From Pseudomonas asplenii (lineage in GTDB: Bacteria > Pseudomonadota > Gammaproteobacteria > Pseudomonadales > Pseudomonadaceae): a stretch of 64,000 nucleotides of DNA. The stretch lies in the NCBI RefSeq assembly GCF_900105475.1, contig NZ_LT629777.1:2418001-2482000 (forward strand). The letters are read 5' to 3'. The position numbers and the translations under genes are program-made. Under the pieces are notes generated by a model. It made no database searches. It saw only the letters and a program-made list of their open reading frames with translations, and was not told the DNA's origin. Below, piece by piece: positions 8,660 through 26,834 of the stretch (position 1 is its first letter; every line of letters starts with the position of its first letter).

Positions 8660-8784
8660 GGTTTCGCAGCCCGTTTAGTTAGGCGCACAGCGCCGCGCAA
8701 GCGGCATTTTCATGTCTGCGTTATGGCGGGCTGTGCGCAGGAGGCTTATGCCTGCCGGGATCCTAACTAACCGGTCTGCGAACC
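8660..8784 (+). ncRNA. Structured leader RNA upstream of a DUF6124/DUF3077-type gene
   Basis: Nested complementary segments define a long branched hairpin. Outer helix: 8660-8669 (GGTTTCGCAG) with 8776-8784 (CTGCGAACC), continued by 8671-8673 with 8772-8774. Next: 8675-8683 (TTAGTTAGG) with 8762-8770 (CCTAACTAA). Inner: 8684-8691 with 8730-8737 (part of GCGCACAGC and GCTGTGCGC). Apical hairpin: 8692-8696 with 8701-8705 closed by a GCAA (GNRA-type) tetraloop. A perfect AGGAGG and an ATG lie in the unpaired 3' strand between two helices. I recall very similar leaders before other small genes of this family in Pseudomonas genomes but know of no named RNA family; function is unknown. Confidence 0.6.
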
Positions 8785-8852
8785 TGCGTACAGTTCGCCA
8801 CCCTTGTCTCGCAGCAAGTTCGTGGCGATCTCTCCCTCGGTATGAGTGTTAG
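8748..8852 (+). CDS. Small leader ORF (34 codons) coupled to the downstream gene
   Basis: ATG at 8748 preceded at a short 3-nt spacing by AGGAGG (8739-8744), encoding a 34-residue basic peptide (starts MPAGILTNRSANLRTV, ends PRYEC). A longer in-frame start at 8712 would give 46 residues but has no ribosome site. Its TAG stop (8850-8852) overlaps the AGGAG ribosome site of the next gene, whose ATG is at 8863, so translation of the two could be coupled. The start lies inside the structured leader. The peptide has no recognisable family and could be a regulatory uORF rather than a functional protein. Confidence 0.4.
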   Translation: MPAGILTNRSANLRTVRHPCLAASSWRSLPRYEC

Positions 8853-9298: not shown

Positions 9299-11050
9299 CT
9301 AACCTTCGCCGTTGACGTTTGTGAGCAGAAACTGCTGCAGCGCCGGATCGACCGCGTACAGCACAACCCCTCGACGAGCCCTTGTGAGAAGTACGTAATA
9401 GATGTTGCGAATGACTTGTTCGCGTACGGCAGGATCTGTTCGCATATTGCTTAGTCTCCTGTCCGCATTGCAGCTTGGGTCAATTTCGATTCGACCATTT
9501 CTCAGGACGATGTCCGGCCCAAGAATGACTCCCACATAGTCATACTCAAACCCTTGTACCGTATAAATGGCACCGACTTCCTCATGGTATCCGACGAGTT
9601 GATTCCACTCCTTGAATGCCATTTTCTGGTTCCAACGAGCCTGCCATGGCCCAATATGGATGTCTGTGCCGACCCCGGGAGTGCGCTCCGTCTGCCAGTG
9701 CCAGCAGTAACCCGCCACGATTCGGCCTGATGCATTGCCTTGGGCCTGCTCTCTCAGGTGGTCCTCCATGGCTTGGGGGGATTCAGCCAACTGCACTGAG
9801 AATTCCGGGACTGATGAATACGCCTGGGTTGCTGCGCCGAACACTAGGTCGTAGACCCAATCCACATAGCTGTTGGCACCACGACATCTCAACTGCTCGT
9901 CCAGTACATGGGTTATCACGTGGTAACCACGTGCATGGGCCATTTGCTGGATGTCATTGCTGCGGCAGTTCTCATCTGGACTGATCCACTGAGAATCATC
10001 GATGAAAAAGACAATGAGGTGCTTGTTGTCCATCAAGCCTGCGGCTGTTGCTTTTGTCAGGCGATGGGCTTCATCAACGACCAGATAAGGAGTGACCGCC
10101 CTGCCATTTACCGCGAAGTCCAAGCCTTTTATGCACTGGCCGATAGCGGCTGACTTGACGTAATACTTCGGATTCTTGCCCAGCTTCATGAGGTGCTGCA
10201 CAAGCTTCATGGCAAGAACGGTTTTTCCGGTGCCGACCAATCCGTGGATGATTACGCAAGTGTTCGTCTGAACCTGTTGCACCAGTGGCGCAATCTTTTT
10301 GAAAGCATGCGTTTGCTGACCAGTCGCCTTGAAGAGGTCACTGCAATTGAGTTTTTCGCTGAAGTTCAGGATAAATGCGTCCGAGTACTTTCTCTGTGGC
10401 GAGGTCAGGTGCGCAAGTGCCTGTGTCGGACGCTTAAGTCGGGATAGCAGCAGCGCGGCATCCTGTTCTCCATGGTTTAGAGAGCGGAGCAAGGAACTGC
10501 TGACATGTGAGCTGAACTCATTGGCACGCAACACTTCCTCTTTCGGTTTTTCCTGGTAGTTATGAAGAAAAACCAGCGTGTTAATGATGGGTTTGAAGTC
10601 TCCGAAGTTGAGCGCATGTTCCAGCGCCGATCGGTAGATATTCACTTGCTCACAGGGGTGTTTGCTTGTGTAGGGCTCGGAGGCCGCGACTTCAAGCCAG
10701 GTCAGGCCGTGATTGGCGCGCAATTTCACGGAGCCTTGTGTCCATTGCTTCAACTCGATGACGATGATTTCCAGTCCCGATTCGCTCTCGCCTATCAGGA
10801 TGCAATCGGCACGTTCAGAGCCAATCGGCATCGGGTACTCGATCAGGATATGACCTTGGAGTGGCGGTTGCTGTTGTAGGAGCAACTTGGCGAGTTCAGG
10901 AAGGGAGTTCCTCCAGGAGCGGGTTTCGGATGCCGATAGTTCCGAATCGGGAAATGTCAGGGCGAAGTCCTTGCACAGCCTTTCGATAAACTCCGGCTTT
11001 GCTGCTTCCAAGCAGAAGTCTTCGATCTTGAGGGTCGCAAGAGCCGCCAT
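9299..11050 (-). CDS. PD-(D/E)XK nuclease-DUF2075 helicase, copy A
   Basis: 583 residues from ATG 11050; a GTG 9 nt upstream is also possible. The N-terminal ~110 residues carry a PD-(D/E)XK-like core: D82 in ERADCILIG, then E99 and K101 in VIELKQW. A P-loop ATPase of the DUF2075 group follows, with Walker A GLVGTGKT at about 270-277, VVDEAHRL as Walker B, FFIDDSQWISP, and the C-terminal VQGFEYDYVGVI and LLTRARRGVVLY motifs of superfamily 1-like helicases. Cytosolic, no signal. It is a distant paralogue of the copies at 11364 and 14649, which share the same architecture. The ATG starts 2 nt after the stop of a 45-codon MazG-like remnant, so expression is probably coupled. Defence against foreign DNA is inferred from the architecture and neighbours. 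Confidence 0.82.
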   Translation of the reverse strand: MAALATLKIEDFCLEAAKPEFIERLCKDFALTFPDSELSASETRSWRNSLPELAKLLLQQQPPLQGHILIEYPMPIGSERADCILIGESESGLEIIVIELKQWTQGSVKLRANHGLTWLEVAASEPYTSKHPCEQVNIYRSALEHALNFGDFKPIINTLVFLHNYQEKPKEEVLRANEFSSHVSSSLLRSLNHGEQDAALLLSRLKRPTQALAHLTSPQRKYSDAFILNFSEKLNCSDLFKATGQQTHAFKKIAPLVQQVQTNTCVIIHGLVGTGKTVLAMKLVQHLMKLGKNPKYYVKSAAIGQCIKGLDFAVNGRAVTPYLVVDEAHRLTKATAAGLMDNKHLIVFFIDDSQWISPDENCRSNDIQQMAHARGYHVITHVLDEQLRCRGANSYVDWVYDLVFGAATQAYSSVPEFSVQLAESPQAMEDHLREQAQGNASGRIVAGYCWHWQTERTPGVGTDIHIGPWQARWNQKMAFKEWNQLVGYHEEVGAIYTVQGFEYDYVGVILGPDIVLRNGRIEIDPSCNADRRLSNMRTDPAVREQVIRNIYYVLLTRARRGVVLYAVDPALQQFLLTNVNGEG

Positions 11051-11052
11051 TG

Positions 11053-11190
11053 TCACCACCCCATGCCGAATTCATGACCCAGCGCCAATGCGTCAGGCGC
11101 ACGAAGTTGGTGCCAGTCCAGATTGCTGGTTAATTGCTCAAGGGCTAGGCGGCTGGTTTCGAGGTGCTGGGAGGTGGCAGTAATGGTCAC
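11053..11190 (-). pseudogene. MazG-like remnant (45 codons) ahead of copy A
   Basis: A GTG-started frame with AGGA 8 nt upstream encodes a 45-residue peptide. Its segment ALEQLTSNLDWHQLRAPDAL aligns without gaps to ALEKFASDRNWAQFHSPKNL of the intact MazG-like protein at 13295-13678, and ETSRLA matches ETTRLA. Upstream DNA is also alike: both read CTGCTC(A/G)ACACCACAGGA shortly before GTGACCA. The frame stops where the GEVGEL metal-binding motif should begin, so the catalytic EXXE...EXXD part is lost. It may persist only as a coupled translated leader for the helicase gene 2 nt downstream. Confidence 0.6.
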
Positions 11191-11252
11191 GAAGATTCCT
11201 GTGGTGTTGAGCAGGCGAGAAGGTGGTGGCCACCATTTCGCCTTTATTCCAG

Positions 11253-11299
11253 ATGCTCGACACCATACTTCCTACAGGCAAGATGAGGAAGTGTGTACG
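11253..11299 (-). promoter_or_regulatory. Shared upstream element, copy A
   Basis: This 47-bp stretch matches 13730-13776 at about 39 of 47 positions, including ACCATACTTCCTAC and ATGAGGAAGTG blocks. Within it ACTTCCT and AGGAAGT form an inverted repeat. It lies 63 bp before the MazG remnant start, much as its twin lies 52 bp before the intact mazG start, so it is probably a promoter or operator common to the two loci. Confidence 0.55.
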
Positions 11300-11363
11300 A
11301 ATTTTCGTTAATGATTGAAGGGGGAAGTCATTGGGCCCAAGGGGCCCAATGAGAGCTACTGCA

Positions 11364-13265
11364 CTAGGCCAATAGTGGCTCGGAAAGAGCGGGAGCATTT
11401 GCCTTGCGCACGAGCAAGCGTTCGCGGAAGTACTGGGCCGTTTCTTCATCTGTGCAGTACAGGTAGCAACCCTTCATTCCGCGGGTCATCAGGGTCCTGT
11501 AGGTGTTCTTGATGATCAGGTCGAGTAGTTGCCGCATCTTGTCCGGCTCGGCTTTCATGAGTTTCTTGTAGCCGAAGACCGAGCGATCATTCTTGTCGCG
11601 TTGCTCCGGGACTGTAACCACGCTGCCATCCCGTATGATCATGTCGGGGCCGATGATCACGCCGATGTAGTCCACCTCCAGTCCCTGGCAGGTGTGGATG
11701 CAGCCCACCTGTTCGACAGAGTTCTGCGCGATGATCCACCGCTTCTCGTCTTCCTCCAGGTTCCACTGGCGACGGTAGTGCTCACCAATGACGATATCGT
11801 CTTCGGTTGCTCGCTTCTTGCTGTTCCAGGGCCAGCAGTAACCGGCGACAACGCGGGCCTTGTTGTTGCCGTTCTTGCTCTCGATCGCGGCATGCATGGC
11901 TTGCGGCGTGTCGAACACCTTGAACTCGTATTCGTCGGTATTGAGATGGTGGTTTGCTGTTTCTCGCACTTGAAGTACGTTATCGAGCCAGGCCAGGTAG
12001 CCATCCGAGCCGCTGCAACGGAATTGTGAGGTGAGGACGTATTCCTCGATTTCGGCACCGCGTGCCTTGGCAAACGCACGGATGGCGTCGCGATTGCCGA
12101 TATCTTTCAGGGTGACGCGCTGGTCCTCGTCGATGAAGAAGATCGTGCAGCGCGCAGCGTTGATCAGCTCCTTGATCTGGTTGTCGCCTTTTTGGCCGTA
12201 GAGATCGCTTTTCTCGGTCAGGCGATGGGCTTCGTCTACCACCAGGAAATCGAATGTATCGGTGGGCGATTCCATGAACGAGCCAGAGCCGGTGAACAGC
12301 TGTGAAAAATGGCTGCGGGGCAGTGCGCCGGTCAGCTTACTTTCGTACACCTGCCGAGGGGCGGAGTTCTTCGAGACGTATTTTCCCACCAGTCCGCGAC
12401 TAGTGAGGTTGACCAGCAGGTTGAGCGCCACCACGGATTTACCGGTGCCTGGCCCGCCCTCGATGATCACCACTTTCGGGCGCTCCGTTGAAGCGCTTGT
12501 CGCGGCGGCCATGCAGCTCTCATGGATCTCTTTCTGGTCGTCGATAAGGACGAACTCGGCCTGCTTCTTCAGCAGTTTGACCAGCGAGTCGGCTAGAGCC
12601 TTCGATGGGCGGATGGGGCTGGCCATCAGTTCATGTAGCACGCGCTTTTCATCGCCCTTGGCGATGTGCTGCTTTATGAACGCCCGCATACGGGCCAGTT
12701 CATCTTTGCCCTTCATGAACAGCGGGGCCTTGCTGATGTAGGCCTGGTAGTGAGGTCCGTCGATGACGTTATCTGGCATATAGTTATGCAGATAGGCGCA
12801 GGCATGCACTTGGATGCCGCCGGAATACACAGCCTCGTTGAATCCTTCCAGCAGCGAGGCGTACGACCACGCCTGATAGGACGGATGTACGGTTTCCCGG
12901 ATCTTGCGACCTAGGAGGGTTTTGACAATGGCGTCCTTGAATGTGGCACTGGCTTCAGCCCATTGTTTCAGCTCAACCAGCACCACGTTTTGCTTGCCGC
13001 TGGCATCCATGCCGGTCAGGGTGATATCGATACGCTTTGAGGTCTGTGGGATGTGCAGCTCAATGGCCACGCCGATGTCATTGGGGATTTCTTCGTCGCG
13101 CAACACCCGTGACATGGCTCCGAGAGAATTCTTCCAGGCGTTCATTTCTGCGGCTGCGACGATTCGGCCGGTGGCTGACTCGAAACTACGGAGGATCACG
13201 TCCTCGATGTCGTCGTTATCGTTGTCTTTCTGAAACTGCTGTTTGGTCGCTTCGTAAACGATCAA
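11364..13265 (-). CDS. PD-(D/E)XK nuclease-DUF2075 helicase, copy B
   Basis: 633 residues. N-terminal nuclease-like module with D80 (KRIDITL), E98 and K100 (LVELKQW); P-loop GGPGTGKS at 270-277; VVDEAHRL at about 342-349; FFIDEDQRVTL; and C-terminal TCQGLEVDYIGVIIGPD and RTLMTRGMKGCYLY motifs. The whole length matches the 622-residue copy C closely (for example DNDNDDIEDVILR and ELHIPQ(T/S)SKRID), so the two are recent paralogues. It follows the mazG-like gene by 29 nt on the same strand and is evidently its operon partner. The fold suggests a nucleic-acid translocase that cuts; the substrate is unknown. Neighbouring Hachiman and reverse-transcriptase genes favour a defence role, which is inference. 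Confidence 0.85.
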   Translation of the reverse strand: MIVYEATKQQFQKDNDNDDIEDVILRSFESATGRIVAAAEMNAWKNSLGAMSRVLRDEEIPNDIGVAIELHIPQTSKRIDITLTGMDASGKQNVVLVELKQWAEASATFKDAIVKTLLGRKIRETVHPSYQAWSYASLLEGFNEAVYSGGIQVHACAYLHNYMPDNVIDGPHYQAYISKAPLFMKGKDELARMRAFIKQHIAKGDEKRVLHELMASPIRPSKALADSLVKLLKKQAEFVLIDDQKEIHESCMAAATSASTERPKVVIIEGGPGTGKSVVALNLLVNLTSRGLVGKYVSKNSAPRQVYESKLTGALPRSHFSQLFTGSGSFMESPTDTFDFLVVDEAHRLTEKSDLYGQKGDNQIKELINAARCTIFFIDEDQRVTLKDIGNRDAIRAFAKARGAEIEEYVLTSQFRCSGSDGYLAWLDNVLQVRETANHHLNTDEYEFKVFDTPQAMHAAIESKNGNNKARVVAGYCWPWNSKKRATEDDIVIGEHYRRQWNLEEDEKRWIIAQNSVEQVGCIHTCQGLEVDYIGVIIGPDMIIRDGSVVTVPEQRDKNDRSVFGYKKLMKAEPDKMRQLLDLIIKNTYRTLMTRGMKGCYLYCTDEETAQYFRERLLVRKANAPALSEPLLA

Positions 13266-13294
13266 GGTCCTTCTTCCTTACTGAAGCCGGGCAA

Positions 13295-13678
13295 TCAGAG
13301 TTGGTCGTATTTCTTTGCGCTGTTCCGAGCCTTCTCGACCGGGTACTTCTCGCCGTTGAGTTGCAGCTTGCGTTGGGCCGCGGCGTTCAGATCGACGCCA
13401 AGCACCGAGGCCAGGCGCACCAGGTACATGAGCACGTCAGCCAGCTCTTCCTCGACGGCTTGGGCTGTTTCGGGCGTGCGAGCGGCGGACTTGGAGGCGT
13501 CTTCGGTCAGCCACTGGAAGATTTCGGTCAGTTCGCCGACTTCGCCGCTCAGGGCCATGACCAGGTTCTTGGGGGAGTGGAACTGGGCCCAGTTACGGTC
13601 GCTGGCGAATTTTTCGAGAGCTTGAGCGAGTCGGGTGGTCTCGACGAGCTGGGCAGAGGCGTGGGTGGGCGTGGTCAC
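13295..13678 (-). CDS. MazG-like nucleotide pyrophosphohydrolase, copy B
   Basis: 127 residues, GTG start at 13678. Shows the EXXE...EXXD metal-binding signature of MazG/all-alpha NTP pyrophosphatases: GEVGELTEIFQWL (first pair) and EEELADVLMYLVRLASVLGVDL (second pair). Members hydrolyse (d)NTPs or related nucleotides to the monophosphate and pyrophosphate. Head gene of a two-gene operon with the nuclease-helicase of copy B. Its paralogue at 16542-16925 precedes copy C in the same way, and a remnant precedes copy A. Nucleotide depletion or clearance of modified nucleotides would fit a defence role but is not shown by the sequence. Confidence 0.88.
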   Translation of the reverse strand: MTTPTHASAQLVETTRLAQALEKFASDRNWAQFHSPKNLVMALSGEVGELTEIFQWLTEDASKSAARTPETAQAVEEELADVLMYLVRLASVLGVDLNAAAQRKLQLNGEKYPVEKARNSAKKYDQL

Positions 13679-13729
13679 GGAGGTGTCCTGTGGTGTCGAG
13701 CAGGCAAGGCCGGGGGGGATTTAGTACGG

Positions 13730-13776
13730 ATGCTCGATACCATACTTCCTACGGTTGATATGAGGAAGTGCGTGCG
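13730..13776 (-). promoter_or_regulatory. Shared upstream element, copy B
   Basis: Twin of 11253-11299 (about 39 of 47 positions identical), located 52 bp before the mazG-like start. Contains the inverted blocks ACTTCCT and AGGAAGT and, read toward the gene, GGTATCGAGCAT that could supply an extended -10. No regulator gene sits beside it. No counterpart is seen before the copy C mazG gene. Confidence 0.55.
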
Positions 13777-13853
13777 ACATTTCTTTGGAGTGTGAGGGAA
13801 ATTGTCGACTATGTTTCAGCATGACCTGCTTGAGCAAGGCTGGAAATGAAGAA

Positions 13854-14320
13854 TTAAATTCGTCCCCATTTCCCCCATTTCCCCAACCTGATCATTTGCC
13901 AAGCATCGATAGCGCGAGGGATACCGGTGCCCAAACCGCGATAGGGGGAGAATGTGCACAGCATGGGAGGTGAGCGTCGGGTTACGACGGTTGGACAGGC
14001 CGAATTGAATTTTATCGGTATCGAGCACGTCAGGCAGGTGCCCAGAGCTGATCCGTTCGATGTGGTCGGCGAAGATCATGATCCGGATGGAGGCGTTGAC
14101 AAAGTAGTCGCGGTGGATCAGTGCATTGACCAGCAGTTCTTCGAACACTTCTTCTGGCACTTCCAACTCGCCGAGGGTGTTGAAGCCCTGCTGGAGCTGC
14201 AGATGGTGCAGATGGTGCAGATTGCGTTTGATGAAGGCCAGGCTGCGTCGCTACTGCTCTTGCAGGTTGCCGTCGATGTTCTCGCTGTCGAGGTACTGGC
14301 GGTCATGCAGCACCTGGCGA
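13854..14320 (-). pseudogene. Broken RecG-like/AlbA_2-type ATP-binding regulator fragment
   Basis: Reading leftward from about 14320, FRQVLHDRQYLDSENIDGNLQ, then RRSLAFIKRN, ELEVPEEVFEELLVNALIHRDYF, IRIMIFADHIERISSGHLPD and SNRRNPTL match the C-terminal ATP-binding half of proteins annotated as ATP-binding or putative DNA-binding transcriptional regulators. An in-frame TAG at 14251-14253 interrupts it, and near 13940 the frame must shift to continue as GTGIPRAIDAWQMIR before a TAA at 13854. The N-terminal AlbA_2 part is absent, cut off at the terminator hairpin at 14341-14365. A decayed passenger gene. Confidence 0.7.
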
Positions 14321-14340
14321 AATGCAAACGCCAGAAACAA

Positions 14341-14365
14341 CAAAACCCGAACAAGGCGGGTTTTG
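14341..14365. terminator. Bidirectional terminator-type hairpin
   Basis: CAAAACCCG (14341-14349) and CGGGTTTTG (14357-14365) are perfect complements around a 7-nt loop, with A/T-rich flanks on both sides. It lies next to a tRNA-3'-end-like sequence, the arrangement seen where a tRNA or tmRNA is followed by its terminator. Confidence 0.6.
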
Positions 14366-14390
14366 TTTGGTGGGCCGGGGTAATTTGAAA
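14366..14390 (-). other. tRNA/tmRNA 3'-end-like sequence, possible old attachment site
   Basis: On the minus strand this reads like a decayed T-loop and acceptor end (TTTCAAAT, CCCCGGCCCACCA), close to the 3' end of ssrA at 26835 (TTCAAATCC, CCGGCTCCACCA) and in the same orientation. Such partial duplicates mark the distal end of elements integrated in tRNA or ssrA genes. If so, it bounds a ~12.5-kb segment ending at ssrA. Between here and 14648 I see no gene or strong signal. Confidence 0.4.
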
Positions 14391-14648
14391 CAAGTCGGTA
14401 TCTATCGGTTTTTTCTGGTTAATAATTTATTGGTCAACTTGCTTGGAATACCAGTTGGAACGCTGCGTGGTCTGGATTCCGATGGACGGTGCTTTTTCCA
14501 CCACGCCATTAATGAGTCGGCATCGAATCTATCAAGCAAATGGCCGTGTAAACACTAGCTATGGCTGGTGACCAACTGCTGATGATCATGGCCCCTGCGC
14601 GTACGATGCTCCACTCGTAGGTACAGAGGCTCCTAGCAAACGATTCCG

Positions 14649-16517
14649 TCAGTGACTGCTGTGTTGACTAAGTCGGCTCTTGAAGAATTGCGCAGTCTCT
14701 TTATCGGTGCAGTACAGGTAGCAACCCTTCATCCCGCGAGTCATCAAGGTTCGGTACGTATTTTTGATGATCAGGTCAGTTTCTTTTTTCGCCAGAGCAG
14801 GTTGCTCCTTCATCATTTTTTTCCAGCCGCGAATCGATTTATCGTGTTTGTCGCGCTCATTCGGGGATGTCACAACGTTGCCATCACGTACGACCAGGTC
14901 TGGCCCGATAATGACTCCGATATAGTCGACTTCCAGACCTTGGCAGGTATGAATGCAGCCAACCTGCTCGATGGAGTTCTCAGCGATGATCCAAAGGCTG
15001 CCATCCTGATCCAGGTTCCATTGTCGCGTGTAGTCACCGATGACGATATCGGCAGCGTTGGGGGCTTTCTTGCTCAACCAAGGCCAACAGTAGCCCGCGA
15101 CTACGCGAGCCTTGTTTCCATGGTTTTTCTCGTCGATGGCGTCATGCAGCGCCTGAGGCGAGTCGAACACCTTGAACTCGTACTCCGAGGTGTCGAGCGT
15201 CGGATTTGCTGTCGAGCGAATGCCAAGGACGTCATCCAGCCATGCCATGTAACCGTCAGAACCACTGCAGCGGAACTGTGAAGACAGCACATATTCCTCG
15301 ACCACAGCCCCCTTGGCTTTGGCAAAGGCGCGTATCGCCTGCTTGCTGCCTATGTCGCTCAGGGTCACACGTTGGTCTTCATCGATGAAGAAAATTGAGC
15401 ATTTCGCTGATTCAATCAGCTCCTTGATCTGGTTTTCGCCAAGGTTCCCATAAAGCCCGCTTTTCTCATTCAGCCGGTGAGCTTCGTCCACGATAAGCGC
15501 ATCGAATGTGTTGGGCTCAGTGTCGATGAACGCCCCAGAGCCTGAAAAGAAATTCGAGAAATGGCTGCGTTTGATGGTGCCAACCAGTTTGCTTTCGTAG
15601 ACCTTGCGTGGGGCGGCATTCTTCGAGACATATTTGCTTAACAGCCTCAATTCTGTGAGCCTCACCAGCAAATTGATAGCCAGAACAGTTTTCCCGGTGC
15701 CCGGCCCCCCTTCAATGATCAGCACCTTTGGTGCCTGGTCCGAGGCTTCGCTTGCTGCCGCAAGCGCCGACTCAAAAATTGCTTTCTGATCGTCTATCAA
15801 TACGAACTCTGGCTTGCCTGTCATCAGCCCTTCAAGGGCTTCGGCTAGCGCTTTGGACGGGCGGATTTTCCCATCGGACAGTTCGTAGAGAACCTCTTTG
15901 TTGTCGCCCTGAGCAATATGCTTTTTCAGGAAGCTTCTGAGTTTGGTGAGCTCGTCCGGCCCTTTCAGGAACAGTGGGGCTTTGCTGATGTGGGGCTCGT
16001 AGTGAGCTGAGTCGATGATGCCGTCGCTGACGTAGTTATGAAGGTAGGCACACGGACGGATCTCGATGCTTTTGTCATACACCGCCTCGTTGAAGCCCTC
16101 CAGCAGCGCGGCGTATGACCATACCTGATAGGACGGGTGAATGGTCTCAACGAGGCCGCCACCCAATGCCGTTTTGACGATGGCATCCTTGGTGGTGGCG
16201 TTGGCCTTGCTCCATTGCTTCAATTCGATCAAGACGGCTTTTTTTGCCTGATTTTCGTCGCGACCGGTGAGCAGAAAATCGATTCGCTTCGACGACTGCG
16301 GAATGTGTAACTCAATGGCCAGGCCCGCGTCGCTCGGCAGGCCTTCATCCCTAAGGACCTTGGCCATGTACGTTAGCGATCCTTGCCACGACCTGATTTC
16401 CGACCTGCCAACGGTCTTGCCGGTGGCCTCCTTGTAATGCCTGAGGATCACGTCCTCGATGTCATCGTTATCGTTGTCTTTTAGAAATTGCTGTTTGGTC
16501 GCAGCGTAAACGATCAC
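14649..16517 (-). CDS. PD-(D/E)XK nuclease-DUF2075 helicase, copy C
   Basis: 622 residues, same build as copy B: D80 in KRIDFLL, E98 and K100 in LIELKQW; P-loop GGPGTGKT at about 270; LIVDEAHRL; FFIDEDQRVTL; TCQGLEVDYIGVIIGPD; RTLMTRGMKGCYLYCTD near the end. Protein similarity to copy B runs over the whole length, while DNA third positions differ, so the duplication is not very recent or the copies were acquired separately. It follows its mazG-like partner by 24 nt. All catalytic motifs look intact. Confidence 0.85.
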   Translation of the reverse strand: MIVYAATKQQFLKDNDNDDIEDVILRHYKEATGKTVGRSEIRSWQGSLTYMAKVLRDEGLPSDAGLAIELHIPQSSKRIDFLLTGRDENQAKKAVLIELKQWSKANATTKDAIVKTALGGGLVETIHPSYQVWSYAALLEGFNEAVYDKSIEIRPCAYLHNYVSDGIIDSAHYEPHISKAPLFLKGPDELTKLRSFLKKHIAQGDNKEVLYELSDGKIRPSKALAEALEGLMTGKPEFVLIDDQKAIFESALAAASEASDQAPKVLIIEGGPGTGKTVLAINLLVRLTELRLLSKYVSKNAAPRKVYESKLVGTIKRSHFSNFFSGSGAFIDTEPNTFDALIVDEAHRLNEKSGLYGNLGENQIKELIESAKCSIFFIDEDQRVTLSDIGSKQAIRAFAKAKGAVVEEYVLSSQFRCSGSDGYMAWLDDVLGIRSTANPTLDTSEYEFKVFDSPQALHDAIDEKNHGNKARVVAGYCWPWLSKKAPNAADIVIGDYTRQWNLDQDGSLWIIAENSIEQVGCIHTCQGLEVDYIGVIIGPDLVVRDGNVVTSPNERDKHDKSIRGWKKMMKEQPALAKKETDLIIKNTYRTLMTRGMKGCYLYCTDKETAQFFKSRLSQHSSH

Positions 16518-16541
16518 GGGTTGTCCTTAGATTCGGGTTGA

Positions 16542-16925
16542 TCAGAGTCGGTCGTACTTTTTGCTGCTGCTTTTGGCTTTATCCACGGGGTATTTCTGGC
16601 CGTTCGAGGCGAGTTTCCGTGTCACCGCTTCGTTGAGATCAACGCCGAGTACGCTGCTCAGGCGAACCAGGTACATTAGTACGTCCGCCAATTCGTCCTT
16701 GACGGCTTGGCCCATTTCGGGGCTTTTTGCGGCGGAGAGCGAATCGGCATCGCTCATCCATTGGAAAATCTCGCACAGCTCTCCTACCTCGCCAGTGAGA
16801 GCCAGGATGAGATTTTTGGGGGAGTGGAACTGTTGCCAGTCGCGATCATCTGCGAAACGCTGAAGGGATGCGGCAAGCTTCACTACGTCAACCAGTGTCG
16901 CGGATGAGCTGTCTGAGTCACTCAC
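16542..16925 (-). CDS. MazG-like nucleotide pyrophosphohydrolase, copy C
   Basis: 127 residues, GTG start. GEVGELCEIFQWM and KDELADVLMYLVRLSSVLGVDL give the EXXE...EXXD signature; WQQFHSPKNLILAL matches the copy B paralogue and the remnant at 11053-11190. First gene of the copy C operon. Unlike copies A and B it has no recognisable 47-bp shared element in the 150 bp upstream, so its promoter is different. Confidence 0.87.
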   Translation of the reverse strand: MSDSDSSSATLVDVVKLAASLQRFADDRDWQQFHSPKNLILALTGEVGELCEIFQWMSDADSLSAAKSPEMGQAVKDELADVLMYLVRLSSVLGVDLNEAVTRKLASNGQKYPVDKAKSSSKKYDRL

Positions 16926-17069
16926 GGGGCTATCTCTTGGATATCAGTGGGGGGCAAGAAATGTGTAGGAAATCCGGCATTGGATTGTAAGGGTTTTCGC
17001 TGTTTGCGCAGGTTTTTTGTGTGTTTCTCTCACGCGCTGTCTGCCGGCCGAATTCCTTGCCAGCGTTCG

Positions 17070-17180
17070 CTATTTGCTTTGAGCGTGGCGAAGTGTGCCG
17101 TCAACAAACAGATCTTCCAGTGCCTGTCGGCGGGCGTAGCTCAGTTGGCCGCGACGACGATCGTGCCCACCGACCAGCGT
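17070..17180 (-). pseudogene. Integrase N-terminal remnant
   Basis: The minus-strand frame reads LVGGHDRRRGQLSYARRQALEDLFVDG, matching the N-terminus of the integrase at 23469-24449 (ALVGRRDGRN...GRQLSYAGPQALKDMFGGG) with a short internal deletion, then stops at 17070. Only ~35 codons survive. It suggests that a second element with the same kind of integrase once lay here. From 17181 to 17677 I see no gene, only an 8-bp inverted pair GTCGCCCC/GGGGCGAC near 17604 and 17640. Confidence 0.5.
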
Positions 17181-17677
17181 CCTTTTCTTCACCCAGTTCG
17201 TTTGTTTGCAGATAGAGCAGCAGCGCTTTCCAATGGGGACTGACGCTGTCCAACTGCTGCCAGATTGCTGGGCGGAATCGAATCGGAGGCGCGTACGGTG
17301 GCACAGAGTTGTGCCCTTTGGTTTCTCGAGCGGGGGCGATGTCCACTTGGTAAGGGTGCAAGTTTTAGTTTGCGGATGTCTGATGTCGCCCAAGATAAGC
17401 GTCTGGCGGAGAGCGATGTAGAATCAAGAGTATCAGTGCTAGCGACTCGCCGTTCTCAAGTGGAGAACGTGGGATTTACAAAGACGTTAGTGCTCAGTTA
17501 AGCGTAGTGACATATCGACTGGGCGAAGACGCGATTATCGTCGCATATAGTCAACCGTATGGGCGCTTTCATAATTTACGTATCTTAGAGTGTGTTCTAG
17601 TCGCCCCTTAGTCATAGATCTAGGATCTAGTGAAAAAATGGGGCGACATCATTGGATTATTGCCGTCAAAAAATACC

Positions 17678-20146
17678 CTATTGAATATCTATGTACTTCC
17701 TTATTTCAAACTGAACAAGATCATCTTGCGACTTTATATACTTAGAAAATTCGCTATTGTATTTAACCTCGCCCAATTCACTTATTGAAATATTCCCCGT
17801 CTGCTTGTCACGTTCCAGTTTGTTAACCAAAGATCCGCTAATGCCCATTTTGACAAACTCGGCATTCATTTTTTTTGTGGTCCCGTAAATATGCAGGTTG
17901 TACTCATTTTCAGTAAGAAGGCGTAAGTCATACAGGGCTTTCACGTACTCATTTAAACTATAAGAAACAAAGTCACTTTCTATCTTGATTTTCACAAGTG
18001 CCAAGTTTACCAGTTCTTTGTCTGTTTTTTTTGATAGATCTATATATACATTATTTCCGTGCACGCCATCGACCCTATTTTTGGCTATCTCTCCATAGGA
18101 ACTTCCAATGAAAAACTCTTTTCCACTATCAGTAAATTTAATGCTCTGAAAATACCCCACCGTTTCTGACAAATGGTCCTTAAGGTTCAAACGGTGTAGA
18201 TTTCTCGTGAATAATTTGTAGAAGTCCCTGGCTTTTGGGTGCTGAAGGCGAAGAAACGCAGCGTCTGAAATCTGATTCTCAAGGGTCTTGATAAAAAACA
18301 AATGCACCTTATCGATTACGTCAGATGTGACCCACTCCTCGCTTGAAAAAATTGTGTCGAGACGCCCTTCAAGTAATCCAAAGACTGACTCAGGATTATA
18401 ATATACGGATGAAATTCCTGACTCCATCAGAGTATGCTTTACCTTGCTAGACTCGACCCCATCACTGTATATCAGGAAATCCTCTTTGCTCCGAAGATAT
18501 TCCAGTTTGCTAATTTTTTGCTCTAGATCATCTAAGCTTTCTTGATCGGTGCTCTCGCGTGCTATCTCCAAATCCTTAGTTATCCGGTCTAGGTCGAAAT
18601 TCAGCAGTAGCGGGTTTTCTATCTTGTCTTTAAATGTACCGTTTTTCAGAAGTCTTATTTTGTTTTCCATTTTTCCACCTTTCCGGTTAAACTCGTCTGA
18701 GTTTACAAAGTGTATAGGTGGAAGAAGCCTTTCGAGAGATTTTCTGCTGTCGTCGAAAACTTCGTTAAGCCTATTTACCCTGCCAATCAGGTTGGTTAGT
18801 GATTTTCCATCTAGGTCGTAAGTATTAAGAATGTAAAGGTTGTCGATCGGTAGGTTGACTCCCTCAAGAATCACTGAGTTCGCGACCATGTACTTAAGTT
18901 CTTTGGTTTGCGAAAATTTGTGCTCCAAGTATTCTTTTATTAAGTCCGGGAGCTTTCCATGCAAATAGATCAATCCCTTTTTTATGTGGTCCACACAATA
19001 GAAATCGGTGTGAACGTTGTTCGAAATTGTTTGAGATAGGTCGTTGAGAGCTATTGATTCCATATAAGCCAGCTTCTGGCTTACAAGCATGGAAAGCTCT
19101 TCAACTTTTTTGGGTGCTCTGAGGTATAGGAAGTTTTTTTCTTTTTTATTCTTGATTATGTAATTAACGAAACTCGACTCGTTTTCTAAGTGATAAAATT
19201 CGTTCATGAATCTGTTGTAAGCGTGTTGCTCTCCATTTGTTTTTAATTCATATATGTCCGGCTCTTTGATATTGCTCGCAATGCGCCTCTCGAAAATTTT
19301 CTGGCTTTCATACGTTTTGAGGTTTTCAGTTTCAGAGATCAGTGGCGACAGGTAGTAGTTTATCGATTCCGGGTTTCGGAGCCTATTCCTACGTATCAGC
19401 CTTGTCAGCAGAATGCTTCTTGCGTCCATTTCGAAGAGGTTGTGGGCCTCATCAATCACCAGCAGGTCAAAAGATATACTGGTATTTTTTAAAAGTCTAA
19501 GGGCGCGTTCTTGAGTAAATATGGAAATAAAATCCCCTGCGCCATCATACATTTCATCATGGAATATAATGTGGCGAAGCGGGAAATTTGCTTTGATTAG
19601 TTTGTAAGTTTGAATTAGAAGTGACTTTGTTGGGACGATGATTGCGGTTGTCTTGGGATTCCTTGATTTTATTATGTCAACAATTAATGTGCTTTTCCCA
19701 AATGAGGTTGGTGCAATGTAACAGTTTTCCTTGCTATTGCTGTCAATTATGTGCTCCCGATATTTTTTCTGCTCGTAGGTTTCGGTTATATCATTGTTCA
19801 GGAATTTCTCTAGCTGGTACTCTAAGGTGAAATTTGTGCTGGTTAAGTTTTCCGTTAATTTGTTTTTTGATATGTATTGCGCTATCGGATAGATCCCGAA
19901 GTTCGAGCTTGCGTCTAATAGTGGCTGATAATAATTGTTGTTTATTGCGCACTTCAAGGTTATGTAGTATGCAATTTCAAAGTAGGTTGATTTTCTTTTG
20001 TCGCCACTGTATTCGTTAAAAAATATAATTGCACAGCTTAGGATAAACTCGAGCTCTCTATCATCAAGCTGAATATTTAGAGATGTCTTTTTCATGACTT
20101 CTGAGAATAATTTGTTGTTCTTGAGCCAAGTCAGGCTAATTGCCAT
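17678..20146 (-). CDS. hamB: Hachiman-like helicase (HamB)
   Basis: 822 residues. Superfamily 2 helicase motifs in order: APTSFGKS (motif I, K151), VPTKSLLIQT (Ia), VIDEAHNL (motif II, D232-H235), ANSVILEGVNLPIDNLYI (motif V region) and NLIGRVNRLNE (motif VI). The APTSFGKS form of motif I and the small nuclease gene immediately upstream fit HamB of Hachiman, a two-gene antiphage system in which HamB senses DNA and releases the HamA nuclease. The ATG lies one nucleotide after the upstream TAA with GGAGAAG spanning the junction, so the two are coupled. AT-rich compared with the core genome, as expected for imported DNA. A related helicase-plus-nuclease system remains possible. Confidence 0.72.
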   Translation of the reverse strand: MAISLTWLKNNKLFSEVMKKTSLNIQLDDRELEFILSCAIIFFNEYSGDKRKSTYFEIAYYITLKCAINNNYYQPLLDASSNFGIYPIAQYISKNKLTENLTSTNFTLEYQLEKFLNNDITETYEQKKYREHIIDSNSKENCYIAPTSFGKSTLIVDIIKSRNPKTTAIIVPTKSLLIQTYKLIKANFPLRHIIFHDEMYDGAGDFISIFTQERALRLLKNTSISFDLLVIDEAHNLFEMDARSILLTRLIRRNRLRNPESINYYLSPLISETENLKTYESQKIFERRIASNIKEPDIYELKTNGEQHAYNRFMNEFYHLENESSFVNYIIKNKKEKNFLYLRAPKKVEELSMLVSQKLAYMESIALNDLSQTISNNVHTDFYCVDHIKKGLIYLHGKLPDLIKEYLEHKFSQTKELKYMVANSVILEGVNLPIDNLYILNTYDLDGKSLTNLIGRVNRLNEVFDDSRKSLERLLPPIHFVNSDEFNRKGGKMENKIRLLKNGTFKDKIENPLLLNFDLDRITKDLEIARESTDQESLDDLEQKISKLEYLRSKEDFLIYSDGVESSKVKHTLMESGISSVYYNPESVFGLLEGRLDTIFSSEEWVTSDVIDKVHLFFIKTLENQISDAAFLRLQHPKARDFYKLFTRNLHRLNLKDHLSETVGYFQSIKFTDSGKEFFIGSSYGEIAKNRVDGVHGNNVYIDLSKKTDKELVNLALVKIKIESDFVSYSLNEYVKALYDLRLLTENEYNLHIYGTTKKMNAEFVKMGISGSLVNKLERDKQTGNISISELGEVKYNSEFSKYIKSQDDLVQFEIRKYIDIQ

Positions 20147-20147
20147 T

Positions 20148-21176
20148 TTACTTCTCCAGGTATTTGATAAAGCTATCTAAGCTCGATTTTGTCAAGCACA
20201 TAGCTTTGATCGTTTTTCCGTTAAATCCCAGTACGAAGCTATTATCAGTTAAGATTTCAGAGCTCGCTGTTGAATCCCATGACCCATTTAAAAAAATAGT
20301 TGAGTAAGTAATAATGTTGAATTCTGTTATCTTACTAAAGGTGCCTTTGTCGAACATGTCCTGAAGAAGTTTTATTTTCTTTCTAATTGATTTTTCCGTC
20401 CCTACATCTATGTGGGAAGCATGATTGTAGGCATTCTTCCATGGATTATTTTTACCTTTCTCGCTTTTCCCGGAAACGTACTTTTCTAAGTCGGAATAGG
20501 CATGTTTTAGCTTGTCTTTGTGACTGATTTTTTTACTAGAAATGGAACCGGATTTGCTTTCGAGTAGATAGGTTTCCGCGTCCTTAGAGAAAAAGCCATC
20601 AAACCCTTTTTTTATTGAGCCTTCTTCTAGATTGAAGAATAGAAATTCCTGTTTGTATCCGGCTGTTCTTAAATATAAGTGCGCAAAGAGCTCTGCGGCT
20701 GCTCCCATACGAGTTTTTTCATCTTTATCTTCAAGAAATTTCCTAAGTCTTAGTTTAACTAAATCTAATTCACTATCGGAGCTTCCTTCACATATTGATA
20801 CCAAGAAATCATCAAGGCATTTGGTTATCTTGGTGTCTAAGGACTCTATGTTAAAGACATGTAGTTCGTGCGTTGGGGATATTAGCTTTATTTCAACTGG
20901 AAGCATTTTTTTAGTCCAGGTTTGCGAGCTATGTAATAAAGGTAACGCTGCCATGCCCCAGGTCGCTCCACCAAATTGGTGGATTTGCTTGGTGCTGCCA
21001 GACGTATCGATAGTGAGGTAGTGCAGGTAGCGATAGGTGCGCCGGACCAGCTTTCGGGCGAGCCGCCGCGTCGAATATTTGTCGTGATAGTCTTGGGCTA
21101 GCGGATTGAGCCGGGCAACCGGCAACGTCCGGCTTGGCTTACCCACTGTTTGGGGGATGATAGGGGGCAAGTCCAT
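20148..21176 (-). CDS. hamA: Hachiman-like nuclease (HamA, DUF1837), with odd N-terminal extension
   Basis: 342 residues as an open frame. Residues from about 91 onward form the HamA-like part: helix EKTRMGAAAELFAHLYLR, then a PD-(D/E)XK core with D193 in GFDGFF and E206-S-K208 in LLESKSG. In Hachiman the HamA nuclease is held by HamB and degrades DNA when released. The first ~90 codons (MDLPPIIPQTVGK..., RRLARKLVRRTYRYLHY) are GC-rich and basic, unlike the AT-rich remainder, and look like the start of another gene fused at about 20930. An internal ATG at residue 91 (position 20906) would give a 252-residue protein close to the normal HamA size, though its ribosome site is weak. Confidence 0.62.
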   Translation of the reverse strand: MDLPPIIPQTVGKPSRTLPVARLNPLAQDYHDKYSTRRLARKLVRRTYRYLHYLTIDTSGSTKQIHQFGGATWGMAALPLLHSSQTWTKKMLPVEIKLISPTHELHVFNIESLDTKITKCLDDFLVSICEGSSDSELDLVKLRLRKFLEDKDEKTRMGAAAELFAHLYLRTAGYKQEFLFFNLEEGSIKKGFDGFFSKDAETYLLESKSGSISSKKISHKDKLKHAYSDLEKYVSGKSEKGKNNPWKNAYNHASHIDVGTEKSIRKKIKLLQDMFDKGTFSKITEFNIITYSTIFLNGSWDSTASSEILTDNSFVLGFNGKTIKAMCLTKSSLDSFIKYLEK

Positions 21177-21366
21177 TTTTCAACCTTTTAGAAATCCTTA
21201 TCCATCCACAATCTACCGAAATTTCAACTGATGGTACGATAGAGTTGCGTAGTGCTGAGACGTCGCTGCGGCCTCGTTGAGATTTAACCCGGGCGCTCAG
21301 GCTGTACCAATGGTGCAACAGCGTAAAACTATCTCTTCTATAGATATTCTAAACTTTAGAGTAAAT

Positions 21367-22863
21367 TTAATAGTTATACATGTTTGACTTTGGATTCATG
21401 ACGCCTTCAACGCCCATATCAGATAACCCTTTTTTCAATGCTTGATATATGAAAAAGAAGCTTGGAAGTTGTAGTCTTTTCTTTCCGTCTACTTTCTGTT
21501 TGCGCAATGTGGACGCGATATCTTTTTTGCGTATGTTGAACGGGCTTGAATGGCTTCTATTATAACCGTGTTTAGAAAGAAGGCTTTTGCGGAGCTTAAT
21601 AGATTTGAAAACTGCTAATACCAGCCATGTATCGAGCTGGCGTAGTTGTGATTCGTCATTGAGGAGCGGATAGAAGCTCATTGTACCTTTAAAGAAAATT
21701 CGATTGCTGGCGCCATTGATATAGTTAGATATCATTTCATCAGTCAAATCTCCGTAAAGAAATCTTCTTATTTCGGAAATTGCTCGTAACAGATCAGCGT
21801 CTTTGTTATTTGCGGGGATGCTCACGGATCTAAGGGTGGAAGGCTTAAGCGGTTGGATTAGGTGCTTGTACAATATATAGCTTATTTCTTTTTTGATATG
21901 TGCTACGGATTTGTCTTTTATTGATATTTTCTCTTTGGATAGTTTGTATCCTAAGAAGTCTACAGAATCTTTACATTGTGCGAATTCGCTTTTATGATCT
22001 TTAGGGCACAACAAACTTATGCCCTCAGATTTTTCCAAGTTTATCGCGACGCCAGTCTCAGCCGAAAACTTATAAACAATCTCATAGGCTACGTTGATTT
22101 TTTGGTAATCATTTGCCCAAATAATCGTGTCGTCTGCATATCGAGCGAATCTTAATCCCGCGAGCTCAAGCTTCTTGTCAAGCTGCCAGCAGACTAGATT
22201 CGCTAAGAATAAGGATATTGACGTGCCCTGTGGTATGCCTTTGCCGGATGCCCCTAAAAAAGCCCTTATTACTTTTCGTTCGCTTTCGCTGATTGAAAAT
22301 CCGTTTTGGTCAAACTGCTGAAATAGATAGTCGTGACGAATGTTATCGAAAAACTTTGAAAAGTCGAACTCTGCAACAAATATCCTAGGAACTTGACCTA
22401 GTTCAAGTGATATGTCTTGAATTGCAAAGTGAGCATTACGGTCATCTCTATAAGCGTAAGCAAACGAGCTTAACCTATGTTTATTCTTCTTCAGTAATTG
22501 GTGATAAAATAAAGCTGATACCGCAGCATCTGGAATTTGATAAATTGATACTGTGCGATACCCGCCAGATGGCTTGCGAACGTTCATATGTGTAGGCGGA
22601 TTTGGGATGTAGGTACCCAAAAGTATTTTTCGCGATATTGAGTGCGCGATTTTCTTGCGATTTTTATTTACGTAAAACGGGTTGAATTTTTTATCCACGC
22701 TCCATTGTGGTGGCAAGGTGACAAGTTTTTCTCCTGGGTCCAACAATCTTCTAGATCTACGCTCATATTCTAAGTCAACCGAGTTGTGGTAAGCGTGATG
22801 ACGATCACTTAGCTTTTCCGCCTCAGCTTGGATAAATTTGAGGAGTTGCTTTTCTAATATCAT
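21367..22863 (-). CDS. Reverse transcriptase, defence-type (unassigned group)
   Basis: 498 residues from ATG 22863, chosen because GAGGG lies 5 nt before it; the open frame extends upstream to 23034 but crosses a terminator-like hairpin. RT motifs: RKPSGGYRTVSI (about 96-107), AYAYRDDRNAHFAIQD (136-150), the first catalytic aspartate in AEFDFSKFFDN (D167), GIPQGTSISLFLANL (209-223), the catalytic RYADDTIIWA (241-250) and VDFLGYKL. It lacks a clear NAXXH and VTG, so it is not a typical retron RT, and has no maturase/HNH domain, so it is not a group II intron protein. A C-terminal ~150-residue extension follows the RT core. Its neighbours suggest a DRT (defence-associated RT), but the type cannot be fixed by eye. 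Confidence 0.78.
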   Translation of the reverse strand: MILEKQLLKFIQAEAEKLSDRHHAYHNSVDLEYERRSRRLLDPGEKLVTLPPQWSVDKKFNPFYVNKNRKKIAHSISRKILLGTYIPNPPTHMNVRKPSGGYRTVSIYQIPDAAVSALFYHQLLKKNKHRLSSFAYAYRDDRNAHFAIQDISLELGQVPRIFVAEFDFSKFFDNIRHDYLFQQFDQNGFSISESERKVIRAFLGASGKGIPQGTSISLFLANLVCWQLDKKLELAGLRFARYADDTIIWANDYQKINVAYEIVYKFSAETGVAINLEKSEGISLLCPKDHKSEFAQCKDSVDFLGYKLSKEKISIKDKSVAHIKKEISYILYKHLIQPLKPSTLRSVSIPANNKDADLLRAISEIRRFLYGDLTDEMISNYINGASNRIFFKGTMSFYPLLNDESQLRQLDTWLVLAVFKSIKLRKSLLSKHGYNRSHSSPFNIRKKDIASTLRKQKVDGKKRLQLPSFFFIYQALKKGLSDMGVEGVMNPKSNMYNY

Positions 22864-23100
22864 AGATCCCTCTAGATCAAAAAAAAGCCCAACACGAATG
22901 CTGAGCTTTTTCCCACGGATGCAACCACGCAAAAATAAATCGCTAAATCCAGCAGTTTCGAGGCTTTCTCTACTTCTGCTGCACATCTCTCTGATAGCTA
23001 AATCCAGAGCTTTAGGGCACCCGCTCACCCCCAAGAGGCATGCGTCGATTCTGGCATTAGTTTGAGATAAGAGTCAACATGCCATCATGTTGTGGCGGGT
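22864..23100 (-). ncRNA. Candidate non-coding RNA leader of the reverse transcriptase
   Basis: The ~240 nt before the RT start hold no convincing gene. They contain an 11-bp direct repeat (GCTAAATCCAG on the plus strand at 22942-22952 and 22997-23007) and, next to the RT ribosome site, a hairpin with a long T-run (22879-22911). Several RT defence systems carry an essential non-coding RNA just upstream of the RT, which this could be. Nothing else proves it; the open codons in this region could instead be an N-terminal extension. Confidence 0.35.
22879..22911 (-). terminator. Terminator-like hairpin just before the reverse transcriptase
   Basis: On the minus strand AAAAAGCTCAGCA, a TTCG loop and TGTTGGGCTTTTT pair imperfectly (two mismatches) and run into eight Ts, ending 15-20 nt before the RT ATG. 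It could end an upstream RNA or attenuate the RT. Confidence 0.5.
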
Positions 23101-23196
23101 AGATCACCTACGTTTTGAAGACTCCTCAACGCACCGGTGCTGACAGAGTTCTTCCGTTGACGGGGGGCCGCTTCTAGCCGTGTTCCGACCCTCGGC

Positions 23197-23472
23197 TCAG
23201 TAGGTGAGCAACCATAATTTTCCCAGTCTAGAAATGAGCAACCGTGCGGTCAGTAAGTAGTAATAGCGTGTCGCGCCACTGCGCTGCTTCAGGTGATGAT
23301 TGAGAAACCAGGCAAGGTGTTTCCTCTGCCAAGCCCACGGATTGTCGCATTGCCATCGCTCAGCGATTGCGGATTGGATCACCTTCGCCTGACGCAGATG
23401 GCGTTGGCGCGTAGCGCATGATCCCGTCAAAACACCCGACAAGAACAGCTCCATATCAAAGGGCCTGGTCAT
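23197..23472 (-). CDS. Small conserved partner of the island integrase
   Basis: 91 residues. Starts with ATGA overlap on the integrase stop, so the two are translationally coupled. Basic and tryptophan-rich (RHLRQAKVIQSAIAERWQCDNPWAWQRKHLAWFLNHHL), with no family I can name; I recall similar short genes after integrases of this type in Pseudomonas islands. A role as recombination accessory is a guess from position. The 160 bp between this gene and the RT leader hold no recognised feature. Confidence 0.6.
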   Translation of the reverse strand: MTRPFDMELFLSGVLTGSCATRQRHLRQAKVIQSAIAERWQCDNPWAWQRKHLAWFLNHHLKQRSGATRYYYLLTARLLISRLGKLWLLTY

Positions 23473-24449: not shown

Positions 24450-24721
24450 GTCGGTCACCTCATCAGCCGCTCTCCGATCCTCGCCCCACGTCATCCCGCC
24501 AAGAATGCTGAGTGTTATCAGGGATCAAGGCCCCTGCGACCTGTGGGGATGTCCTCTAACGCGGGACTGGCGGCTCCTTACGACCGGGAGCAAGGGCATC
24601 TCATGATCTGGCCTCCTCAACACCATTACCGGTGGGCGGGTGGAGGCTGCATTGGCTGACGAGACCAGCGCCTGAAGATCCTGAGCCGGGTGTACGCAGC
24701 GGTGCGATGACCGGGGCATGC

Positions 24722-24736
24722 CTGACTGTCAGTCAG
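24722..24736. repeat. 7-bp inverted repeat
   Basis: CTGACTG and CAGTCAG flank a single T. Short and of unknown meaning; it lies between the two integrases at the edge of a low-information stretch. Confidence 0.35.
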
Positions 24737-25157: not shown

Positions 25158-25261
25158 GGGCCGAAATTCAGCGCTCTTGGTGACGTGAAAAGCCGTTATC
25201 CACCGGTGGAATTCCGTGGTAAATCCCGGACAACGTCGTGGCTTTTAGCTCTTCAAAATGA

Positions 25262-25306
25262 GGTCCATCCAAACAGGGCGGCTTTGCAGCCCTGTTTGGA
25301 TGGACC
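25262..25306. repeat. Perfect 18-bp inverted repeat
   Basis: GGTCCATCCAAACAGGGC (25262-25279) and its exact complement (25289-25306) flank a 9-nt loop GGCTTTGCA, 85 bp downstream of the P4-type integrase stop. It has no T-run and is not one of the usual GC-rich REP forms in this window. Confidence 0.65.
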
Positions 25307-25390
25307 CGCGCTGAGAAGCGGATAAGCGAGGCTGCTTGCCCCGAATCTTGAACGTTCAGTTGTTGCCGCAATTCTTGCGCCTGCACAGCG

Positions 25391-26647: not shown

Positions 26648-26797
26648 GAGTTTCTCCTCAGGCACTGATTCGGTATTCCAAAGATTAGCATCGGGTGAGC
26701 TGGAATACCGTATGGAATACCCCAACCGCTGGAACTCAAAAACTCTCAAAAGACCGTAAAAGCGCTGGAGGCCGCGTGTTTACTGAGTCGCAGGCAC

Positions 26798-26827
26798 AAA
26801 AAAAGACGCCCTTGGACGTCTTTTTTT
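26798..26827 (-). terminator. ssrA terminator
   Basis: A-run plus GACG (26798-26808) pairs with CGTC plus T7 (26817-26827) around CCCTTGGA, 8 nt past the 3' CCA of ssrA on the minus strand. The A and T tracts make it work in both directions. Confidence 0.85.
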
Positions 26828-26834
26828 GATCATT

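Follow-up and report, generated by a model that had tools for sequence, protein, structure and literature searches.

We have analysed computationally a stretch of 64,000 nucleotides (nt) of the Pseudomonas asplenii genome (contig NZ_LT629777.1, positions 2,418,001 to 2,482,000, hereafter the window). An Rfam P31 match and the named relatives agree with a genome of Pseudomonas type. The window contains three neighbouring genes, hel_A, hel_B and hel_C, that code for a PD-(D/E)XK nuclease fused to a superfamily 1 (SF1) helicase. Two of them are directly preceded by a gene for a MazG-like nucleotide pyrophosphohydrolase. The motifs and folds of these proteins, the conservation and coupling of the pair, its mobility and its genomic context were established by computation, and we consider it moderately probable that the two genes form an undescribed, horizontally moving defence module with the nuclease-helicase as effector and a dCTP-type MazG as partner.

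Nuclease-helicase and MazG genes in the window

The gene hel_C (14649-16517, minus strand) codes for 622 amino acids (aa), with the nuclease fused to an SF1 helicase of the Schlafen group 3 type. Nuclease and SF1 helicase are also found in hel_B (11364-13265, minus strand, 633 aa, TTG start) and, in a diverged version, in hel_A (9299-11059, minus strand, 586 aa), the true start of which is likely the ATG at 11050, with a conserved MAALATL. All three belong to the Pfam family PF09848 (SLFN-g3 helicase, formerly DUF2075), with E values of 1.9e-60 (hel_A), 8.6e-108 (hel_B) and 2.6e-104 (hel_C) and scores of 205, 361 and 350 bits against a curated cut-off of 24; copy A matched in addition the NERD nuclease domain. 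Residues D80, E98 and K100 (ELKQW motif), the P-loop lysine and DEAH were present in all of the 17 aligned relatives, copies A, B and C included. The first-pass annotation of this DNA had described nuclease-helicase fusions with intact D...E-x-K, Walker A and DEAH motifs in the three copies, and both the open reading frames (ORFs) and the 17-row alignment confirmed it. In the predicted structure of the hel_B product (predicted local distance difference test score, pLDDT, 86) the helicase part resembles UvrD and SLFN11, and the D...ExK motif lies within the alpha/beta core of the PD-(D/E)XK fold. A Foldseek search with the nuclease domain alone gave no match at E≤0.001, and hence this domain was assigned from the motif and the VIA rows. 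All three helicases, copy A among them, are under purifying selection, with ratios of nonsynonymous to synonymous substitution rates (dN/dS) of 0.09 for A and 0.078 for B (both against the related genome G948) and 0.073 for C (against G099), each from one genome pair.

Directly upstream of hel_C, mazG_C (16542-16925, minus strand, 127 aa) codes for a MazG-like nucleotide pyrophosphohydrolase of the dCTP pyrophosphatase 1 type, and mazG_B (13295-13678, minus strand, 127 aa) holds the same position with respect to hel_B. Both proteins match PF12643 (E 1.2e-16 and 8.7e-15, respectively) and have the ExxE/ExxD metal site. Upstream of hel_A there is a remnant of 45 codons (11053-11190, minus strand), with a MazG-like beginning that ends ahead of the ExxE and ExxD catalytic motifs, so that the earlier statement that a MazG-like gene precedes every helicase holds for B and C and fails for A. 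A stub of equal length is found in G948 too; its dN/dS was 0.56, compared with 0.25 for mazG_B (both against G948) and 0.17 for mazG_C (against G099), again with one genome pair each. Copy A has thus lost its MazG, and its helicase remains under selection. Across 72 alignment rows of MazG the residues E46/E49/E78/D81 and W30/H34/W56 were kept at 93-100%. MazG resembles dCTP pyrophosphatase 1 (DCTPP1/RS21-C6, PDB 6sqw, E 2.9e-29), with the motif residues kept. The human enzyme is described as an enzyme of the dNTP pool whose affinity is high both for dCTP and for its modified forms (PMC7162842); the MazG genes studied here, by contrast, form a unit with a nuclease-helicase gene.

Conservation and distribution of the pair

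In a sample of 199 Pseudomonas genomes, and at a threshold of E≤1e-20, the helicase was found in 21 genomes and at 23 places, three of them in the genome of the window. A MazG gene adjoins it at 15 of the other 20, one of which (L013) has the helicase broken into two ORFs; one more place is a fragment and four have an intact helicase without MazG. Among these four, an HNH gene stands in its stead in G091, the tail of mazG alone is left in G059, the helicase immediately follows ssrA in G144 and nothing recognisable takes its place in G181. A sample of 299 genomes of the phylum gave 17 places outside the genome of the window, with MazG adjacent at seven (one downstream, one a broken mazG). Of the ten without it, one was A-type and nine belonged to another DUF2075 type that scored 27 bits at most, or had no score, against copies A-C; MazG was found at none of these nine within the flank examined (up to 1.5 kb).

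A scan of a genome collection led by a relative from a Microcystis phage gave at least 202 relatives, the best 80 of which come from Bacteroidota, Bacillota, Proteobacteria, Verrucomicrobia, candidate phyla and archaea. MazG was adjacent in 53 of these 80 loci (49 by script, four by eye): directly upstream in 46, downstream in six and divergent in one (L101). The 46 upstream cases comprise 43 called by script plus L082, L094 and L105, recognised by eye because of a mis-called start or a broken frame. In two more loci MazG was one gene away and in another about 5 kb away. In the 43 script-called pairs the median gap was 3 nt; the two genes were no more than 30 nt apart in 38 and overlapped in 13. 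Since 197 of the 199 Pseudomonas genomes have one to three MazG-like genes, we estimate by reasoning that adjacency by chance would be expected at far below 1%. The MazG and nuclease-helicase pair is a conserved unit, and its adjacency exceeds chance in the genus as in the diverse set.

The family is also found on mobile DNA. At least two relatives appeared among viral contigs, the single full-length one having MazG adjacent, and relatives of hel_B were present in four phage records and on plasmids. The DNA of the hel_B gene had no match in E. coli. Results of protein searches are those among the best 120 rows, and two of the searches drew on at most about 8000 candidates. A-type relatives were found in one of 369 genomes of the class at E≤1e-100 and in two of 398 genomes of the genus at E≤1e-80, the genome of the window included, and being so few they give little context for copy A.

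Some arrangements depart from the simple pair. An AbiU2-type HEPN gene lies between MazG and helicase in L116 (4436-5080), and a 284-aa gene without a Pfam match does so in L115 (9137-9991). On one contig (G490:C27, loci L045 and L031) an A-type helicase without MazG and a MazG-helicase pair are separated by about 17 kb, which may mean that types like A and B are transferred together. Tandem diverged DUF2075 helicases, some with broken frames, were found in plasmids of Hymenobacter and Marivirga (L046, 8001-11987; L048, 6179-9742), the second gene being demonstrably A-type in neither. A fixed order of B then A, which the tandem genes of Hymenobacter canadensis had suggested, was dropped, as the second gene is 27% identical to copy A and the tree places it outside the A-type; the Hymenobacter upstream gene was likewise discarded as a MazG, having no match in Pfam or with the MazG profile.

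Defence-type neighbours

The neighbours of the helicase were compared in 20 loci (19 of the 20 Pseudomonas places outside the genome of the window, the fragment being dropped, and G490 of the same family), with seven proteins per locus (six in one) and 139 in total. As controls we used 133 proteins from 20 regions of six of the same Pseudomonas genomes. At E≤1e-20, 57 PADLOC families were matched in the helicase neighbours and six in the controls, so that the neighbourhood is rich in defence-type genes, as had been proposed. GajA of Gabija, ZorB and ZorE of Zorya and the phospholipase "Effector" model are among the neighbour matches listed. Furthermore, ssrA lay inside the region in five of the 20 helicase loci and in none of the 20 controls. 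Around the 80 diverse loci, 110 PADLOC families were matched across 137 of the 151 chosen neighbours, in this case without a matched control.

The Hachiman-like and reverse transcriptase genes that the first-pass annotation had placed in the same block are indeed there. A HamB-type helicase near copy C (17678-20146, minus strand) matches the PADLOC HamB model, and a reverse transcriptase (21367-23034, minus strand) matches Drt9 with 681 bits over nearly the whole profile, which identifies it as DRT9, a type of reverse transcriptase alongside which a noncoding RNA is expected. The gene upstream of the HamB-type helicase (342 aa, within 17678-21176, minus strand) was without a match in Pfam, PADLOC or NCBIfam at E≤0.01; it contains a D...ESK-like stretch and is possibly a diverged HamA-type nuclease.

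Variants and type IV restriction neighbours

In 16 of the 80 diverse loci (L061-L066, L068, L072, L073, L075-L077, L080, L084, L089 and L099) the helicase carries a C-terminal extension with the Ser/Lys pattern of LexA (S24-like), both residues being kept in 15; MazG is adjacent in 12 of the 16. Pfam confirmed the S24 domain in both helicases tested (L064 and, from the phylum sample, L030). Upstream of the Ser/Lys pair ten of the 16 have the sequence AAG, which we take to resemble a LexA cleavage site. The domain suggests that in some lineages the effector is switched by a DNA-damage signal. Nucleases activated by proteases are described in other systems (PMC12799240).

Among the flanking genes of the 80 loci, one with a phospholipase D (PLD) nuclease, a helicase and DUF3427 was found in 12 and a NUDIX gene in nine, and in three loci (L055, L109 and L130) there is a contiguous run with MazG and the helicase. 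All seven of the PLD-helicase-DUF3427 genes tested matched the PADLOC model mREase_IV, and the neighbours alone match it, not the pair itself. The layout is that of SauUSI, described as cutting DNA with m5C and hm5C (PMC3874153). In Priestia a MrcB_N gene with an HNH match below the cut-off precedes MazG, and a Vibrio prophage (L179, PQ189364.1, 1885-4214) has two type-IV-like HNH genes, with scores of 69 and 26 bits against mREase_IV, followed by MazG; this record is not among the four phage records with a hel_B relative.

Comparison with known systems

The first-pass annotation knew of no named system with this pair, and the same emerged from the library that we used, PADLOC-DB 2023, in which no model fits the pair: the two MazG proteins had no match, and the helicases matched in part (PDC-S41 with 49-63 bits, in pieces; AbiO and Nhi with 38-43 bits over the helicase core alone), below what would place them in any of these families. 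Nor did the open-licence literature contain, among the matches listed, a paper with both DUF2075 and MazG or one describing the pair, which is probably an undescribed form of nuclease-helicase defence. None of the three helicases matched the HamB model at E≤0.01, and at the same threshold there was no GajA match and one weak match to GajB (copy A, 15 bits). Copy C also gave 16 bits with RTasNERD-Hel, the model of a helicase associated with reverse transcriptases of defence systems.

The nearest worked-out analogue would be Hachiman (HamAB), in which a nuclease and a helicase likewise act together on DNA and which is described as responding to DNA damage, a plausible parallel for the S24-carrying relatives (PMC12278908). 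The differences are that HamB is another kind of helicase and its nuclease a separate protein, whereas the present system has its nuclease and SF1 helicase in a single chain, with MazG as partner. SauUSI also has a nuclease fused to a helicase (PMC3874153), but with a PLD nuclease, a ResIII-type helicase and DUF3427 in place of PD-(D/E)XK and SF1, so that the SauUSI-like gene is a neighbour of the pair and not its homologue. PDC-S41, a candidate defence gene of the DUF2075 type, shares the helicase family PF09848 with copies A-C. The other DUF2075 type of the phylum sample, which has MazG at none of its nine places, is represented in this comparison by L033, the single member run against PDC-S41 (E 6.5e-276, 915 bits). 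With human SLFN11 and SLFN14 the likeness lies in the helicase domain and the N-terminal domain differs, as Schlafens carry there an RNase core, unlike the PD-(D/E)XK nuclease of copies A-C. Actually, a defensive MazG is not a new idea, since DefensePredictor lists MazG among its predicted but unvalidated defence domains (PMC13092281). The system behind that prediction may be this pair; the words "helicase" and "Schlafen" are absent from the main text of that paper.

Possible function

Judging by its context, the module presumably defends against phage or other foreign DNA. The nuclease-helicase is probably the effector; after loading on DNA that is foreign, damaged or modified it would move along it and cut it. 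MazG most likely acts on dCTP or 5-substituted dCTP, and in this way could starve or clean the precursor pool of the phage or, alternatively, keep salvaged modified dCTP out of the host DNA, so that the host would not be targeted. Since helicases persist where MazG is missing, we prefer to see in it an auxiliary that cleans the pool, protects its own cell or starves the phage of precursors, and not a switch or antitoxin that the helicase could not do without; an obligatory antitoxin is unlikely given copy A and the four intact Pseudomonas helicases that have none. If the module is defensive against phage, it would be a case of immunity directed at DNA and at its precursors at the same time, and the pair, spread over many bacterial phyla and archaea, couples an enzyme of the nucleotide pool to a cutting motor.

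A link of MazG with dCTP or modified cytosine is our hypothesis, and a fuller version of it, speculative and unlikely as a whole, is that 5-substituted cytosine would be policed both in DNA and in the nucleotide pool. DNA containing it would be destroyed by the nuclease-helicase, joined in some loci by a SauUSI-like or MrcB_N-HNH partner. The DCTPP1-like MazG would destroy the modified dCTP, and the host chromosome could then not be marked for attack by bases that were salvaged after the breakdown of phage DNA. In the S24 members, DNA damage would induce self-cleavage of the fused LexA-like domain and in this way set the effector free; they would be effectors with a LexA-like switch of their own.

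Several observations weigh against the defence module or its cytosine link. The PADLOC tallies count families and not proteins, and one protein can match several families; their controls come from six Pseudomonas genomes and none was matched to the 80 diverse loci; and, by Pfam, many of the Pseudomonas neighbours are ordinary metabolic genes. No MazG was found within the examined flank of 24 of the 80 diverse loci (of these, L076 and L080 have less than 200 nt of upstream flank and L074 has a split helicase), and from these together with the four intact Pseudomonas helicases it follows that MazG is not obligatory. Its putative preference for dCTP or 5-modified dCTP is read from sequence similarity, and the link with modified cytosine depends on the neighbours in 12 of the 80 loci. 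Finally, among 30 proteobacterial genomes with MazG of the same kind and no helicase at the threshold, DUF3427 was found in one, at a distance from MazG, and none of the HNH places listed adjoins MazG either. A general link of MazG with type IV enzymes was thus not seen, and we rejected it.

As an alternative to phage defence, the genes could be a stress-response cassette for DNA repair and nucleotide sanitation, in which MazG (and NUDIX where present) would clean damaged or oxidised dNTPs, the nuclease-helicase would process damaged DNA and the S24 domain would tie both to the SOS response. The conserved Ser/Lys pair of the S24-like extension and the nearby NUDIX genes fit this, as does a mycobacterial MazG described as cleaning 5-OH-dCTP (PMC3855555). 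We consider it possible but unlikely, as a repair cassette accords poorly with the patchy presence in the genus, the integration at ssrA, the defence-rich neighbours and the occurrence on plasmids and in phage records.

MazG could also be a switch. A nucleotide would hold the nuclease-helicase off until MazG, or a phage-driven loss of nucleotides, relieves it, or else MazG would starve the cell of dCTP in an abortive response. Gabija, which is nucleotide-gated, would be a precedent, and the tight coupling of the two genes and the preserved active site of the dCTP pyrophosphatase type speak for a switch. The persistence of intact helicases without MazG at four of the 20 Pseudomonas places, and of copy A under purifying selection, indicates that the helicase can be both harmless and useful without MazG, and makes the switch doubtful.

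Three lineages gathered at ssrA

The element with copy C is integrated at the gene ssrA (transfer-messenger RNA, 26835-27224, minus strand). An att-like repeat of the 3' end of ssrA was found at 14366-14389 (minus strand), matching in 22 of 25 columns the ssrA end at 26833-26857; its BLAST E value is 0.22, and we accepted it because of its location with respect to the ssrA end and the empty site described below. Between the two ssrA-like repeats, at the 3' end of ssrA, lies an element of 12.5 kb (14366-26857) with two integrase genes (23469-24494 and 25391-26749). The related genome G948 lacks positions 14370-26832, that is, copy C, the HamB-type helicase, the 342-aa gene, DRT9 and the two integrases: its alignment to the window runs from 34798 to 26833, continues with a stretch of 54 nt (14316-14369) and then from 13876 to 6711, the long pieces being 91-92% identical. 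About 440 nt (13877-14315) are also missing from it. Since G948 has mazG_B-hel_B-hel_A next to ssrA without the element of copy C, at least two layers have settled at this gene, an older one with B and A and a newer one with C.

In a tree of 49 helicases, copy C clusters with copies that many Pseudomonas genomes possess (that of G099 being 97% identical) and copy B groups with P. vanderleydeniana (95%). Copy A belongs to a distant clade, being 93% identical to P. asplenii, 97% to G948 and 28-30% to either of the two others. The copies are three separate lineages gathered at ssrA. The notion of a single antiphage system diversified by duplication within this block, to which the shared strand and gene order of the three copies and a 67-nt block upstream of A and B (79% identical) had lent some credit, is very improbable and we rejected it, as the closest relatives of the copies are in other species and C sits on an ssrA-integrated element of its own that is missing from G948. 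Clustered "copies" at ssrA can thus be repeated acquisitions and not duplications.

An inverted repeat, ACTTCCT-N12-AGGAAGT, is found upstream of mazG_B (13744-13769) and upstream of the copy A remnant (11267-11292). It occurs twice in the window and in none of 100 shuffles, is present also in G948 and in no other locus compared, and is a possible operator. In a promoter scan, promoter-like sites were less frequent than in shuffled sequence. Between copies B and C there is a fragment of a RecG-C/AlbA-type HATPase_c_4 gene (13816-14166, minus strand; 24 bits, with a Pfam cut-off of 26). Rfam identified a radC RNA (24994-25129, minus strand) and a C4 antisense RNA (8719-8805, plus strand). C4 is a regulator of the P4-satellite type, and an older element may have lain at this match.

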